Assembly (NCBI GenBank): GCA_035764005.1
Contig: DASTZZ010000095.1
Coordinates: forward strand, 1-64,000
Source of the DNA: Terriglobales bacterium
Lineage (GTDB): Bacteria; Acidobacteriota; Terriglobia; Terriglobales; Acidobacteriaceae
Direction: 5' to 3'
DNA: 64,000 nucleotides
The notes below the pieces were generated by a model. It saw only the letters and a program-made list of their open reading frames with translations, did not search any database and had not been told where the DNA came from. Position numbers and translations under genes: made by a program. Shown here piece by piece: positions 9,588 through 16,347 of this stretch. The first letter of the stretch is position 1; each line of letters starts with the position of its first letter.

Positions 9588-9685
9588 GGTGAGCGCGGGA
9601 GGAATCGAATCCGCAACAAAATGCAGTTTCAACACCATGCAGGGCTACGGATGACACTCAAGGCCATGAAAGTCAACTCAAGCCA
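9588..9685. repeat. Repeat copy A: tRNA-Lys 3'-end-like repeat (candidate att scar)
   Basis: A 98-bp segment about 87% identical (13 mismatches, no gaps by eye) to the copy at 10722-10819. Its first 22 bases differ at one position from the 3' end of the tRNA-Lys gene at 16272-16347 (T-arm plus acceptor), in the same orientation. The rest of the tRNA is absent. It lies in the 363-bp gap after the AraC gene; the rest of that gap has only a small hairpin (9445-9464, arms CTTTGAT/ATCAAAG). Interpreted as an old attachment-site scar. Confidence 0.65.
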
Positions 9686-9751
9686 AAGCCCTCACCACTT
9701 CCTTCGACTCGCCCGATTACAAACAGGTAGTCATCCTGCAAGACATGTTCT

Positions 9752-10357
9752 TCACTTAGACAATTCCAGTCGATCAAGAAATTCTTGCAGCGCCACATAA
9801 TGAGGATTCTCGCGCACAACATTGCGCCGGATAGTGATGGGATGCGTTTCCAACGCGCCGTTCAGAATCACGCGCCCGGACAGCGACCGAACGTCGTACA
9901 TACAAACAATGACACAGGGGAACTGGCGGGCAGCATCTGTTACTTTCGCCTCGAATTTCAGAATCTCCGCTTCTTCCGGCCAGTTCGGTCGGCCCCAGCC
10001 AATATTTCCAAGCAAACGTATCAGCTTCGTGCCCTGGGAAATCCTCTGCTGAAAGTGGCTTCCTATTCTTGAAAGAATCACATCGCTGTTCTTGTCCCCC
10101 GCAAGAGTGATCAGCCGGCCCGATTTCGTAGCGTACTCGACATTCACTCCTTCTTTCTTCAGAACCGCTAATACTTTCTCATTTGCCTCCTCATAACCGA
10201 ATACAACCGCATCATCATTGGCGCGCAGTCCAGTAGAGAGGAAGCGGACACCACGGCTGAACTCTTCTTCCGACTCCCAAAAATACGCGATGTGATCGCA
10301 TCGTGAGCACAACGCGTCACTGATACCGAGGGGAATTTCTTTTACGCGTAAATTCAT
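9752..10357 (-). CDS. MEDS (DcmR-type sensory) domain protein
   Basis: About 201 residues forming one MEDS domain (methanogen/methylotroph DcmR sensory domain, PF14417): HIAYFWESEEEFSRGVRFLSTG near the N-terminus, GTKLIRLLGNIGWGRPNWP in the middle, and FPCVIVCMYDVRSLSGRVIL followed by a conserved HPITIRRNVVRENPHY end. The domain is RecA/KaiC-like in fold, usually a sensor attached to histidine kinases or HTH modules. Here it stands alone with no output domain. The ATG giving MNLRVKEIP is preferred; the frame is open 33 codons further upstream (10456). It lies between repeat copies A and B, so may be cargo of a past insertion. Confidence 0.8.
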   Translation of the reverse strand: MNLRVKEIPLGISDALCSRCDHIAYFWESEEEFSRGVRFLSTGLRANDDAVVFGYEEANEKVLAVLKKEGVNVEYATKSGRLITLAGDKNSDVILSRIGSHFQQRISQGTKLIRLLGNIGWGRPNWPEEAEILKFEAKVTDAARQFPCVIVCMYDVRSLSGRVILNGALETHPITIRRNVVRENPHYVALQEFLDRLELSK

Positions 10358-10721
10358 TAACTTTTGTCGCTTTAGACTCAATGATACCTTGAGCCACAAT
10401 CCTCGACCGTGGCGCAGCCCCAAGCGATTTGCAGAGTCGCTAGCAATCTGGCCCATCCCGCAACACCAATTAACGCCAAAGCAGTCTGACGAGTTTTGCC
10501 GCTTCTATTTGCCTACGAATCCCGTTATGGGCTTGGTAGTGATTGCTCCTGCTGCTGGATATCATGCTCGCTGCGCCAAAGCGACTTTCCACGATTCGCC
10601 GGCTCCCGTGCCGGAATACTTTAACCGACTGCGACAATTTGCACGAACCGAGAACGCTCGAACTCATTGCGAGCCGCTGTCTTTGCCGCTATCCGACCAA
10701 ACGGCGATGGATCACGAAATT

Positions 10722-10819
10722 GGTGAGCGCGGAAGGAATCGAATCCGCAACAAAACGTACTTTCAACAACGTCCAGGGCCACGGATGACACGCAAGGCCA
10801 CGAAAGCCAATGCAAGCCA
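10722..10819. repeat. Repeat copy B: duplicated tRNA-Lys 3' end (candidate att site)
   Basis: Positions 10720-10743 match 16271-16294 (the 3' end of tRNA-Lys, T-arm to CCA) perfectly over 24 bp and in the same orientation. Beyond this the segment continues with sequence shared with copy A but not with the tRNA. A direct repeat of a tRNA 3' end is what tyrosine-recombinase elements leave at their far boundary, and the recombinase remnant lies against the tRNA as expected. The implied element is about 5.5 kb. Confidence 0.7.
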
Positions 10820-10972
10820 TGCAAACAGAGCGCGTATAGAGCGCGGCTCCGGAGCCGGGCGGTGTTGTATCGATGAGCCTGACTGAGTGATCAGGCGGGA
10901 TTGATAAAGAACGCACGGGTCTGGACTAGCTTGCGCTCCGGTGATGAACATGGTCGAGCCAGAGCAAGTCGG

Positions 10973-14104: not shown

Positions 14105-15334
14105 CTAGTTCGGGCCCATGGCAATGGCCTTCTTTTGCGCAGCGTTCTTTGCTTCCGCGGCTATTCGCTGCAGGCGCTGTTTGTATGGACCGAGGTTTGC
14201 ATCGGTGTACTTGGCGGCCAGTGCAATTGCTTGTTGGAGATTCTCACTTGCGGCATCGTACTTGCCAGCCGCTTCGAAGCCCTCGCCCAAGCTTTTGTAC
14301 GCATTGGCCGATTCGGGATAAAGCTGAACATTCCGCTGAAAGACCGCGATTGCCTCATCGAGTTTGCCATCGTTCTTGAGTTGATAGCCGAGTTCGTTAA
14401 TGACAGTCTCCGGCAGCGGAATGCTGTAACCGAAACGCTGAGACAGTTTGCGGTAGTGATCCTCAATTCCGGCTAGACCACCTATGAAGCCGGACGTTTC
14501 GTCGCGGGGTGGATCCCATCCCTTAAAAATCATGCATAGACCGGCGTAGTGCGCGCGCAGCACAGTTGAGCCGTGCGTCTCGTCCGGATAGTGCTCGGCC
14601 TTCCACAAAAAACCTTCAGGTGCGTGTTGCGAAAGCGACTTTTCCAGAGCCGAGAAATTTCGCGACATCGGATTATCAGAATTTCCTTCGCCAGCCAATG
14701 ACATGAACAGCGTGCTATTCAGCTTCGCTTGGGTCGCAAACAACTGTTGCGCCTGATGAAGAACACGCCCGTCGTCCCACTGCAGACTCGGACTCACCGC
14801 GAGGTAGGCCTTGAACATGTTCGGTCGTGTGATCAGCGCGTAAATCGCGAGCAGGCCACCAAGCGAGTGCCCAGTCAAAATTTTGTACGGCGCGACCCGA
14901 TAGCGCTTCTGGACTTCGGGCATTAGCTCAGCTTCAATGAAATCGAGGAACTTATCGGCGCCGCCTGCGGTTGGAAATGGGTCGGTTTTTCCTTCCGGGA
15001 GTTTGTGGTGAGTGGAGGTCAAATCGCGCGTGCGATCGGTATTCTCAATTGCGACGACGATTACCTCTGGCATGCGAGTATTCGTGACCAAGAAATCGAT
15101 CGAACTGCCAATCTCGTTCACATGCCATGGACCATCTGTCTGGTAGATGACCGGGTAAATATGCGTGCTCCGATCGTAACCACGAGGCGTGCGCACCCAA
15201 ATCACGCGATCTTCATTCAGCACTTTCGAGTGCATGGTGAAGCTCTGCGGAACAGGCGGCGCAATTTCCTCCCCTTCACTCGCAACTGAAAAAACTGCCA
15301 GTACGGTAAGCAGGAGCCGAATGGCGAATCTCAT
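14105..15334 (-). CDS. Secreted esterase D-like hydrolase with C-terminal TPRs
   Basis: A 409-residue exported alpha/beta hydrolase. A signal peptide (about 1-20) precedes a putative-esterase domain (PF00756) at ~30-285: YPVIYQTDGPWH, the nucleophile elbow TGHSLGG (Ser near 174), and a late His in the DETHGSTVLRAHYAG segment. Residues ~320-395 form two TPR-like units (LDEAIAVFQRNVQLYPESANAYKSLGEGF). This matches the YbbA/IroE-type siderophore or ester hydrolase family widespread in Acidobacteriota. The substrate is unknown. It runs toward the winged-helix regulator within the candidate island. Confidence 0.88.
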   Translation of the reverse strand: MRFAIRLLLTVLAVFSVASEGEEIAPPVPQSFTMHSKVLNEDRVIWVRTPRGYDRSTHIYPVIYQTDGPWHVNEIGSSIDFLVTNTRMPEVIVVAIENTDRTRDLTSTHHKLPEGKTDPFPTAGGADKFLDFIEAELMPEVQKRYRVAPYKILTGHSLGGLLAIYALITRPNMFKAYLAVSPSLQWDDGRVLHQAQQLFATQAKLNSTLFMSLAGEGNSDNPMSRNFSALEKSLSQHAPEGFLWKAEHYPDETHGSTVLRAHYAGLCMIFKGWDPPRDETSGFIGGLAGIEDHYRKLSQRFGYSIPLPETVINELGYQLKNDGKLDEAIAVFQRNVQLYPESANAYKSLGEGFEAAGKYDAASENLQQAIALAAKYTDANLGPYKQRLQRIAAEAKNAAQKKAIAMGPN

Positions 15335-15619
15335 GGCAATCTCGGTGAGAGATTACTCCACAGAGCTGCACCACGCCAGCACAGAAATAAGAAATCGAGC
15401 AATTCCTTCAAACTTACGCGAAGCTAAATACTCGAGCGGTTCCCCTTAAACAGTTTTCAGCGCAGGTTGTAATAATCGTCTTTCGGGCGTTGTCCCGCCT
15501 CGGCTCGGTCTAACGAAAATCTTAAAGAAGAGAAGATTGGGTGGCCTCAATCCGCAGCACAACAGCACGTCTCATACTCGGTACCTCTTACATGCTCTTG
15601 TCTTTTGCTTTAGTAATGA
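15335..15619. other. Intergenic region upstream of the recombinase remnant
   Basis: About 285 bp between the start of the esterase gene and the readable part of the recombinase. No intact gene, and no clear N-terminal recombinase domain could be read in any frame, so the 5' half of that gene is either lost or decayed here. Confidence 0.5.
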
Positions 15620-16258
15620 GAAGTCACGGTTCGAGGTGCGACGAAACGCAAGCGGCACCCGCGCAGCCTTACTGTGGAAGAGTTCCGCCGGTTCGCGCAG
15701 AACATGAGAGAGCCGTTTCGCACGATGGTCTGCTGTGTGTCTGCCTGGGCCTGCATCAGTGAGTGTCTGGCGTTGCGTTGGTCGGACGTTGATTGGCTCA
15801 ATGGCAAGCTGCTGGTCGAGCGGGCATCGTTTGCCAGCAGGTTGACGATGTAAAAAGCGACGAGTCACGTCGGCAAATGTCCATTGATGTTTCGAAGTGC
15901 TCAAGGTGTGGAGACAAACGACCCAGTTTTCGCAACCCGAAGATTGGATCTTTGCCTCTCCAACGAAAGCTGGGCGGCTGCCGTGGTCGTACGATCAGGT
16001 CTGGCGCATGAGCAAAAAGCCGCCGCAGCAACGGGAATCGGTCAACTTGGGACGCACTCTCTGCGGCATACCTATCGCTCCTGGCTGGATTCAGTCGGAA
16101 CGCCAGTGGGCGTGCAGCAGAAGCTCATGCGGCACGCCGACATTCGCACAACCATGAATGTGTGCGGCGATGCGGCAACGGATGAGATGACCCAAGCGCA
16201 CAGCAAAGTGGTGGGATTAGCTCTGAATGGAGCGCAGACAGAGCGCAAAGCGAGCTAA
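15620..16258 (+). pseudogene. Tyrosine recombinase (phage-type integrase) remnant
   Basis: The catalytic half of a tyrosine integrase can be read only by joining frames: RSLTVEEFRRFAQNMREP...SECLALRWSDVDW, then a shift near 15825 into CQQVDDVKSDESRRQMSID, another to QPEDWIFASPTKAGRLPWSYDQVWR, and a last shift to GTHSLRHTYRSWLD...QQKLMRHADIRTTMNVCGD. The first catalytic Arg (normally GLRISE) is Cys (ACISE), and the nucleophilic Tyr (normally NVYGD) is Cys (NVCGD). HSLRH and the later His remain. No N-terminal core-binding domain is found. It ends 13 bp before the tRNA-Lys 3' end, the classic site of such a gene. Certainly non-functional. Confidence 0.9.
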
Positions 16259-16271
16259 CCCATTGAAAAGT

Positions 16272-16347
16272 TGGTGAGCGCGGAAGGAATCGAACCTTCA
16301 ACCTACTGATTAAGAGTCAGTTGCTCTGCCAGTTGAGCTACGCGCCC
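16272..16347 (-). tRNA. tRNA-Lys (CTT)
   Basis: The complement gives a full cloverleaf of 76 nt including an encoded CCA. The acceptor GGGCGCG pairs with CGCGCTC (one G-T). The anticodon arm ACTGA-CTCTTAA-TCAGT puts CTT in the anticodon. The T-loop GGTTCGATTCC is intact. Its 3' end faces the integrase remnant and is repeated at 10722 and, less well, at 9588, so it probably served as an integration site. Confidence 0.97.

Follow-up and report, generated by a model that had tools for sequence, protein, structure and literature searches.

Islands that integrate into tRNA genes, as catalogued with Islander in the passages drawn on here (PMC4383910), are characterized by a restored tRNA gene beside the integrase gene and by a displaced 3' fragment of the same tRNA gene, in the same orientation and on the correct side, more than 2 kb away; tandem islands are known, and Table 1 of that paper counts 4 tandems of three or more members among 3919 islands. 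Both the T-loop and the anticodon loop are described as integration subsites of tRNA genes in the excerpted parts of PMC4383910 and PMC1762012, and for the Cluster K mycobacteriophages the excerpt of PMC3203893 gives a core of 24 bp at the 3' end of the tmRNA gene. Here we analyse a stretch of 64,000 nucleotides from a Terriglobales bacterium (assembly GCA_035764005.1, contig DASTZZ010000095.1, positions 1 to 64,000; the whole of it is called the window below), which shares these Islander features and in which a tRNA-Lys(CTT) gene very probably borders a decayed tandem array of about four integrative elements. Judged from the sequence, the array would extend over about 17 kb, and its innermost unit (10720-16294, 5.6 kb) would belong to a family of elements with a T-loop-specific integrase and a direct repeat pair on each side of attP.

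The tRNA-Lys(CTT) gene identified by ARAGORN (16272-16347, minus strand, 3' end at 16272) is intact and would be the integration target, with its 3' tail through the T-loop (16271-16294, plus strand, found by the tail search) as the proximal attachment core. The 24-mer TTGGTGAGCGCGGAAGGAATCGAA, i.e. the tRNA 3' tail with one flanking base, is found exactly both there and at 10720-10743 (plus strand), the far end of the innermost unit, just as an earlier sequence-only reading of this DNA had stated. That reading also named a further copy with a mismatch at 9588, and a decayed displaced tail does lie at 9586-9609 (plus strand), with two mismatches in the 24-mer and one in the 22-mer counted from 9588. 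We searched the whole genome (5,101,813 bases in 131 contigs) for the tail with up to three mismatches; below, G-numbers designate genomes of the same family (G000 being the genome under study), C-numbers contigs of G000, and L-numbers fetched loci. Outside the window, two places were found, both with three mismatches: C65:6373, which is the tail of tRNA-Lys(TTT), and C83:1162, which is a further displaced tail with its own arm. The tail repeats are hence not frequent all over the 5.1-Mb genome, which would have spoken against an island. The reversed 24-mer has no match in the genome, and 100 shuffles of the window gave no tail matches. Thus, an intact tRNA gene and a displaced 3' fragment in the same orientation on its 3' side are both present, and the interval 10720-16271 (5.55 kb) lies within the range of 2 to 200 kb used by Islander, while the second unit (9588-10719, 1.13 kb) taken alone would fall short of the 2-kb minimum.

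The remnant of a tyrosine integrase gene (15623-16258, plus strand), which had been noticed 13 bp from the tRNA 3' end, is borne out by the Pfam match and by alignment with relatives. The Phage_integrase model gives an E-value of 1.6e-5 and 25.2 bits, just under the gathering score of 27.1 bits, and the remnant exhibits 47% identity to residues 233-441 of a 446-aa relative; its open reading frame (ORF) of 124 aa ends at 16258, 13 bp before the tRNA gene. In the alignment with five relatives the N-terminal part is missing, there is an in-frame stop, and one stretch is out of frame, while Cys residues occupy the aligned positions of what we take to be the first catalytic Arg and the catalytic Tyr. 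The intact integrase expected of a functional mobile element is therefore missing, and because the integrase is broken, the innermost unit should not be able to move by itself. All nine related-integrase loci with a named source come from metagenome-assembled genomes of Acidobacteria.

The likeness between the displaced copies does not end with the tRNA. Those starting at 9588 and 10722 are 87% alike over 98 bp, of which the first 22 bp correspond to the tRNA and 76 bp lie beyond it; the repeat is thus of 98 bp instead of 24. Nor does 9588 hold as the left limit proposed earlier, the array extending further to the left. We call this element end beyond the displaced tail arm A (10744-10845, plus strand); in the second unit it was recognized at 9610-9690 (plus strand) by its likeness to the 10722 copy, without a recognizable repeat pair. 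We searched 300 genomes of the family for arm A, scoring two candidates per genome, and among the matches listed at least 48 genomes, G000 included, have a match that runs past the tRNA part; any match to the query was found in 128 genomes, many of these matches being confined to 34 bases at its start, which is what a tRNA-Lys gene would yield. Five genomes have arm A at one end of an interval and an integrase of one family at the other, with 6.8 to 9.8 kb from the tail to the integrase end; the integrase abuts the tRNA-Lys gene in G035, G306 and G169, and a displaced tail in G020 and G261. The geometry on which the sequence-only reading had relied, i.e. an intact tRNA gene, an abutting integrase 3' end and a far tail in the same orientation, is thus a recurrent one, with the same arm and the same integrase family in relatives. 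At one further locus (L181:1801-3082, G105), an integrase end, the core and arm A are directly joined and the repeat types differ on the two sides; two tandem elements probably meet here.

We looked for a far-end tail at 16 loci (15 of the 20 integrase loci inspected, and G181). It is present at 11 of them, identical through the T-loop (TCGAA), at 2.2 to 12.1 kb from the integrase end; six of these loci, including the window, are at tRNA-Lys, three at tRNA-Ser, and one each at tRNA-Asn and tRNA-His. At the remaining five (G001, L187, L189, G010 and G181) it was not seen within the DNA fetched. The near end in G020 and G261 is not a tRNA gene but a displaced tail as well. In other genomes of the group, members of the integrase family also abut tRNA-His, -Ser, -SeC and -Asn genes or lie close to them (L187, L190, L191, L185, L186, L189, L203 and L199).

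The two ends of the innermost unit are further connected by short repeats. The 3' ends of the integrase genes at the 20 loci inspected carry two similar repeats of 8-9 bp, 11 to 13 bp apart; among the 19 loci scored, the tandem 8-mers exhibit no mismatch in 11, one in seven and two in a single case (L185), while 214 of 1,900 shuffled regions contain a pair with at most one mismatch (the pair chosen by the script in G306 is not the one recognized by eye). The integrase-side pair of the window, GGAGCGCA / AGAGCGCA, has a period of 11 and lies inside the integrase 3' end (16229-16247, plus strand). When this pair was scanned along all the window sequence to its left, the best match was found at 10827 in arm A, at a distance of 2, where AGAGCGCG occurs twice, again with a period of 11 and of the same type (10827-10845, plus strand); the next best match, at 5443, has a distance of 3. 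A distance of 2 or less was reached in one of 60 shuffles, with at least 3 in all the rest; for three control stretches taken elsewhere in the window, on both strands, the best distances were 3 or 4. A general repeat search independently paired 10821-10842 with 16234-16255. This match links the integrase remnant with the tail copy at 10720. Across the 11 loci with far-end tails, the best match between the integrase-side sequence and the far end begins 101 to 107 bp from the tail start in 10 loci, and at 93 in G033. In an automatic test that compared own ends with permuted pairings, 58 of 200,000 permutations reached the observed sum. A hand-made version gave 3 of 200,000 at or below the observed distance, with strings chosen after inspection of the sequences, and 28 of 720 when restricted to the six tRNA-Lys elements; our argument rests on the automatic test, which is the weaker of the two. 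Since pairs of 11-bp repeats flank the core in the Cluster K mycobacteriophages, the repeat pairs are likely to be arm-type integrase sites. The innermost unit thus has a tail identity that ends at the T-loop, an arm A, and pairs of one type at both ends, which are the traits by which we define the arm-A family of T-loop integrase elements.

What an undamaged member of this family could look like is indicated by G035, G020 and G261. Their apparently intact elements (6.8-7.4 kb) resemble the window unit in arm A, in the integrase family and in the tRNA-Lys target or its displaced tail; they differ in that they carry a second recombinase, helix-turn-helix (HTH) genes and TIR, AIPR or CBASS-type genes, while the window unit keeps only the 3' part of the integrase gene. 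The second tyrosine-recombinase-like protein, of 593-634 aa, precedes the integrase together with small HTH proteins in G035 (L075:14650-16554) and G020 (L080:11358-13139); this larger recombinase is also present in G261 and was found in 14 of the 300 family genomes at an E-value of 1e-20. Defence-type genes were matched in all three genomes by scans that included PADLOC: TIR/ThsB-like and NERD/SEC-C genes in the G035 element, TIR and AIPR genes in the G020 element, and CD-NTase and Cap15 (CBASS-type) in the outer of two tandem elements at the tRNA-Lys gene of G261 (L144:162-14720), a one-contig genome. G306 (L150:3236-12827) has a 9.8-kb element at tRNA-Lys with the same integrase type, Abi_alpha, a phage capsid gene and one large gene with no Pfam or PHROG match, and may be a phage satellite or remnant; G169 has a gene for an RHS-repeat protein.

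The outer units are characterized by a second kind of end. Arm B, the end of an element with another integrase type, was seen beside tRNA-Lys tails in G003 and G004 and was found in 19 of the 300 genomes, twice in G000: at 4554-4645 in the window (plus strand; 85% identity to the G003 arm over 92 bp, E-value 1.1e-21) and at C83:1035-1126, with a tail at C83:1145-1185. Once reverse-complemented, C83 shares an exact overlap of 119 bp with the window start, and one gene for a LytTR regulator spans the joint, which places the outermost tail about 1.07 kb to the left of window base 1. The other integrase type was found 8 kb from arm B at a tRNA-Thr gene in G061, and in partial form near a weaker arm B match, also at tRNA-Thr, in G301; in G226 and G009 remnants of it, a tail and arm B follow in succession. 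In G104 it is joined to a tail and arm A as a remnant longer than the scrap in the window, which consists of 23 bp directly before the 9588 tail (9565-9587, plus strand) and resembles the stretch of G005 that comprises the final 10 bp of this integrase type together with the spacer before tRNA-Lys (a 53-bp match at 87%, tail included). At arm-B sites the matched tail mostly covers 38 to 51 bp of the tRNA and so extends roughly as far as the anticodon loop; the two integrase types therefore appear to use two subsites of one tRNA. A study of tRNA sublocations was reportedly made by Williams in 2002.

According to Pfam, the third unit comprises at 4723-9388 genes for CMD, cupin, DUF2255, Zn-ADH and aldo/keto reductase (AKR) proteins on the minus strand and for an AraC regulator on the plus strand, all of them probable cargo. 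The AraC region had been taken for the chromosomal flank; arm B at 4554 and the homologues found at other arrays indicate that it is probably another unit of the array. In G003, homologues of CMD, ADH and AKR (92, 74 and 65% amino acid identity) lie within 7.5 kb of the tRNA-Lys gene on its 3' side, inverted; in G087, ADH and AKR homologues with the order and orientation of the window lie 5 kb beyond a tail and arm B; in G002, CMD precedes arm A. This recurrence at tRNA-Lys arrays speaks for 4.55-9.59 kb as a unit of the array rather than a flank. The inner part of the fourth unit (1-4451) comprises a sensor kinase gene on the minus strand, the LytTR regulator gene over the contig end, and DinB-like and MacB/FtsX permease genes on the plus strand.

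In the second unit, the only gene recognized is that for a MEDS-domain protein (9752-10456, minus strand; Pfam 1.7e-21), which lies between two arms, in agreement with its earlier assignment to a second, adjacent unit. The innermost unit contains genes for an esterase with TPR (14105-15334, minus strand), for a winged-helix (Trans_reg_C) regulator with TPR (12190-13959, plus strand) and for a protein with DUF6923/DUF4394 and FIMAH domains (11035-12033, minus strand), all recognized by Pfam. The sequence-only reading had considered all three as cargo. For two of them this is probable: the esterase has no match at an E-value of 1e-20 in 60 relatives (five of them congeneric; at most 30 first-look candidates scored per genome), and the FIMAH protein (the propeller-FIMAH protein of that reading) has none at 1e-10 in 60 relatives, five of the same genus. 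Carriage of the winged-helix gene is uncertain; as DNA similar to it is common in many relatives, this gene supports nothing either way, and it is possible cargo at most. Pfam matched no phage structural or packaging genes among the 14 window ORFs scanned, and no relaxase or conjugation genes either, no search having been aimed at conjugation models; PADLOC gave no match for the four window proteins scanned out of the 14 ORFs, and the window does not qualify as a defence island.

On its 5' side, the tRNA-Lys gene has a conserved context in four of five congeners (G001, G003, G004 and G005), where its neighbour is a gene for a 718-aa protein. The tRNA-Lys gene of the window adjoins tRNA-Met and the gene at 16875-17711, which we take to encode a DUF1003 protein; no tRNA gene was found in 17 to 19.5 kb around the homologue of the latter in G001, G003 and G004. 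Between the two tRNA genes lies a short dispersed repeat (16488-16570), with copies on C5 (82%) and C72 (79%). Despite the changed neighbourhood, tRNA-Lys(CTT) may have kept a short motif upstream of it that congeners also have. The 3' side, compared over stretches of 3 to 10 kb, differs between the congeners, and the only genes found in common are the winged-helix TPR gene (window and G002) and the CMD-ADH-AKR set (window and G003).

Several observations weigh against a tandem array of integrative elements. Of 12 proteins of the G035 and G020 elements, among them the second recombinase, HTH and defence proteins, only the integrase matches the window. Composition is barely different (GC 0.546 and 0.517, compared with 0.560), and no 2-kb window starting at 4 to 15 kb departs by more than 1.1 standard deviations (SD) in tetranucleotides, so that the comparison of 9.6-16.3 kb with its flanks, suggested as a check, gives almost no signal; the only tetranucleotide outlier is 2-4 kb (2.8 SD), over the permease gene. 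The G000 copy of the 718-aa gene is on C98 (G000:C98:6473, L090), without a tRNA gene, and the left flank on C83 beyond the outermost tail, where the gene is presumably that of PEPCK, has neighbours unlike those in G001, G003 and G004 and is not syntenic with these genomes. The empty site expected to join the AraC region to the tRNA gene was not found in the congeners compared, in which no join of the two flanks was seen; the array has a gene order on either side that departs from that of the congeners, so that no such site could be demonstrated. The arm at 4554 has no recognizable tRNA tail. Finally, the automatic repeat test puts the own far end first, alone or tied, in no more than six rows out of 11, and the scores of own far ends (12 to 19 of 20) overlap those of shuffled far ends (mean 12.2, maximum 16), with G020 scoring 12, i.e. 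at the shuffled mean; that repeat types are common to several elements accounts for part of this unevenness.

These observations in part agree with an alternative in which the tails and arms are real, but the intervening genes are ordinary genes of the chromosome that entered an already decayed array by later recombination, so that nothing except the integrase scrap and the arms would derive from elements. We consider this unlikely, though to be taken seriously: of the element proteins tested only the integrase remnant survives, DNA like the winged-helix TPR gene is common in relatives, composition is near that of the flank, and gene order around the tRNA-Lys gene of G000 is rearranged. However, the esterase and the FIMAH protein lack counterparts in the 60 relatives, and tRNA-Lys arrays or arms in G003, G087 and G002 are also accompanied by non-defence genes (CMD, ADH, AKR and winged-helix). 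A single island reaching from the outermost tail to tRNA-Lys, with internal tails made by later duplication instead of successive integrations, is improbable: it would be in line with the survival of one integrase remnant of any length and with the 87% similarity of the arms of the 9.59- and 10.72-kb units, but there are two types of arm, of which arm B goes with the other integrase type in G061, G226 and G009, and junctions of integrase end, tail and arm occur in relatives, including the one in G104 that joins the other integrase type to arm A. That the repeats arose by chance or belong to a dispersed family unrelated to integration is hardly credible despite the dispersed repeat nearby, as within three mismatches there are only the window copies, a second tRNA gene and one other tail with an arm, and arms co-occur with integrases and tRNA genes or tails in several genomes.

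A tandem array could have been formed by the mechanism of the known family of tRNA-targeting tyrosine integrases. The integrase would recombine the attP of the element with the T-loop part of the tRNA gene, where strand exchange presumably takes place; as attP carries the tRNA tail, integration would restore the gene beside the integrase and displace the original tail to the far end, where it could be reused as a site, so that elements arriving one after another would pile up. It is conceivable, and we propose it only tentatively, that the repeat pairs serve as an element-specific address, which differs between elements of the same tRNA core and is the same at both ends of one element; bound by the N-terminal domain of the integrase, it would let each integrase pair its own ends in a tandem array and excise its own unit, and the compact two-recombinase elements with exchangeable defence genes would then be the active form of the fossil in the window. 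The window illustrates how a decayed island can be read through its ends instead of its genes, an arm and a repeat pair locating the partner end even when just a scrap of the integrase remains. The analysis further suggests that Acidobacteriota harbour a group of small elements targeting tRNA genes, and that TIR, AIPR or CBASS-type genes are carried by some of them; among the titles and abstracts listed for open-licence papers on Acidobacteria, integrase and tRNA, no description of this element family was found.

Compared with the known systems, the array differs from the islands of Islander, as the excerpt of PMC4383910 defines them, in that its integrase gene is a pseudogene and the rule that each tandem member has its own integrase does not hold for the three outer units: the ORF that Islander looks for is represented by a broken remnant in the innermost unit and only by the doubtful scrap at 9565-9587 in the outer ones. 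With about four units it would be a long array, given the few tandems of three or more in the counts of that source. It resembles phage Ms6, as presented in the quoted part of PMC1762012, in that the core comprises the 3' end of the tRNA gene together with the 7-bp T-loop (the Ms6 core is of 26 bases), and differs in the tRNA used and in that no phage gene was recognized in the window unit; the comparison is one of descriptions. The closest parallel to the repeat pairs is offered by the Cluster K mycobacteriophages, in which, according to the section of PMC3203893 considered, putative arm-type repeats of 11 bp stand in pairs on the flanks of the core and vary in sequence between related phages. 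In the K1 phages, as that section describes them, one pair is inverted and attP is 5' of int, while the window unit has two direct pairs and an integrase gene that abuts the core with its 3' end; and the arm-A family, compared with Cluster K as described there, comprises several quite different repeat types.

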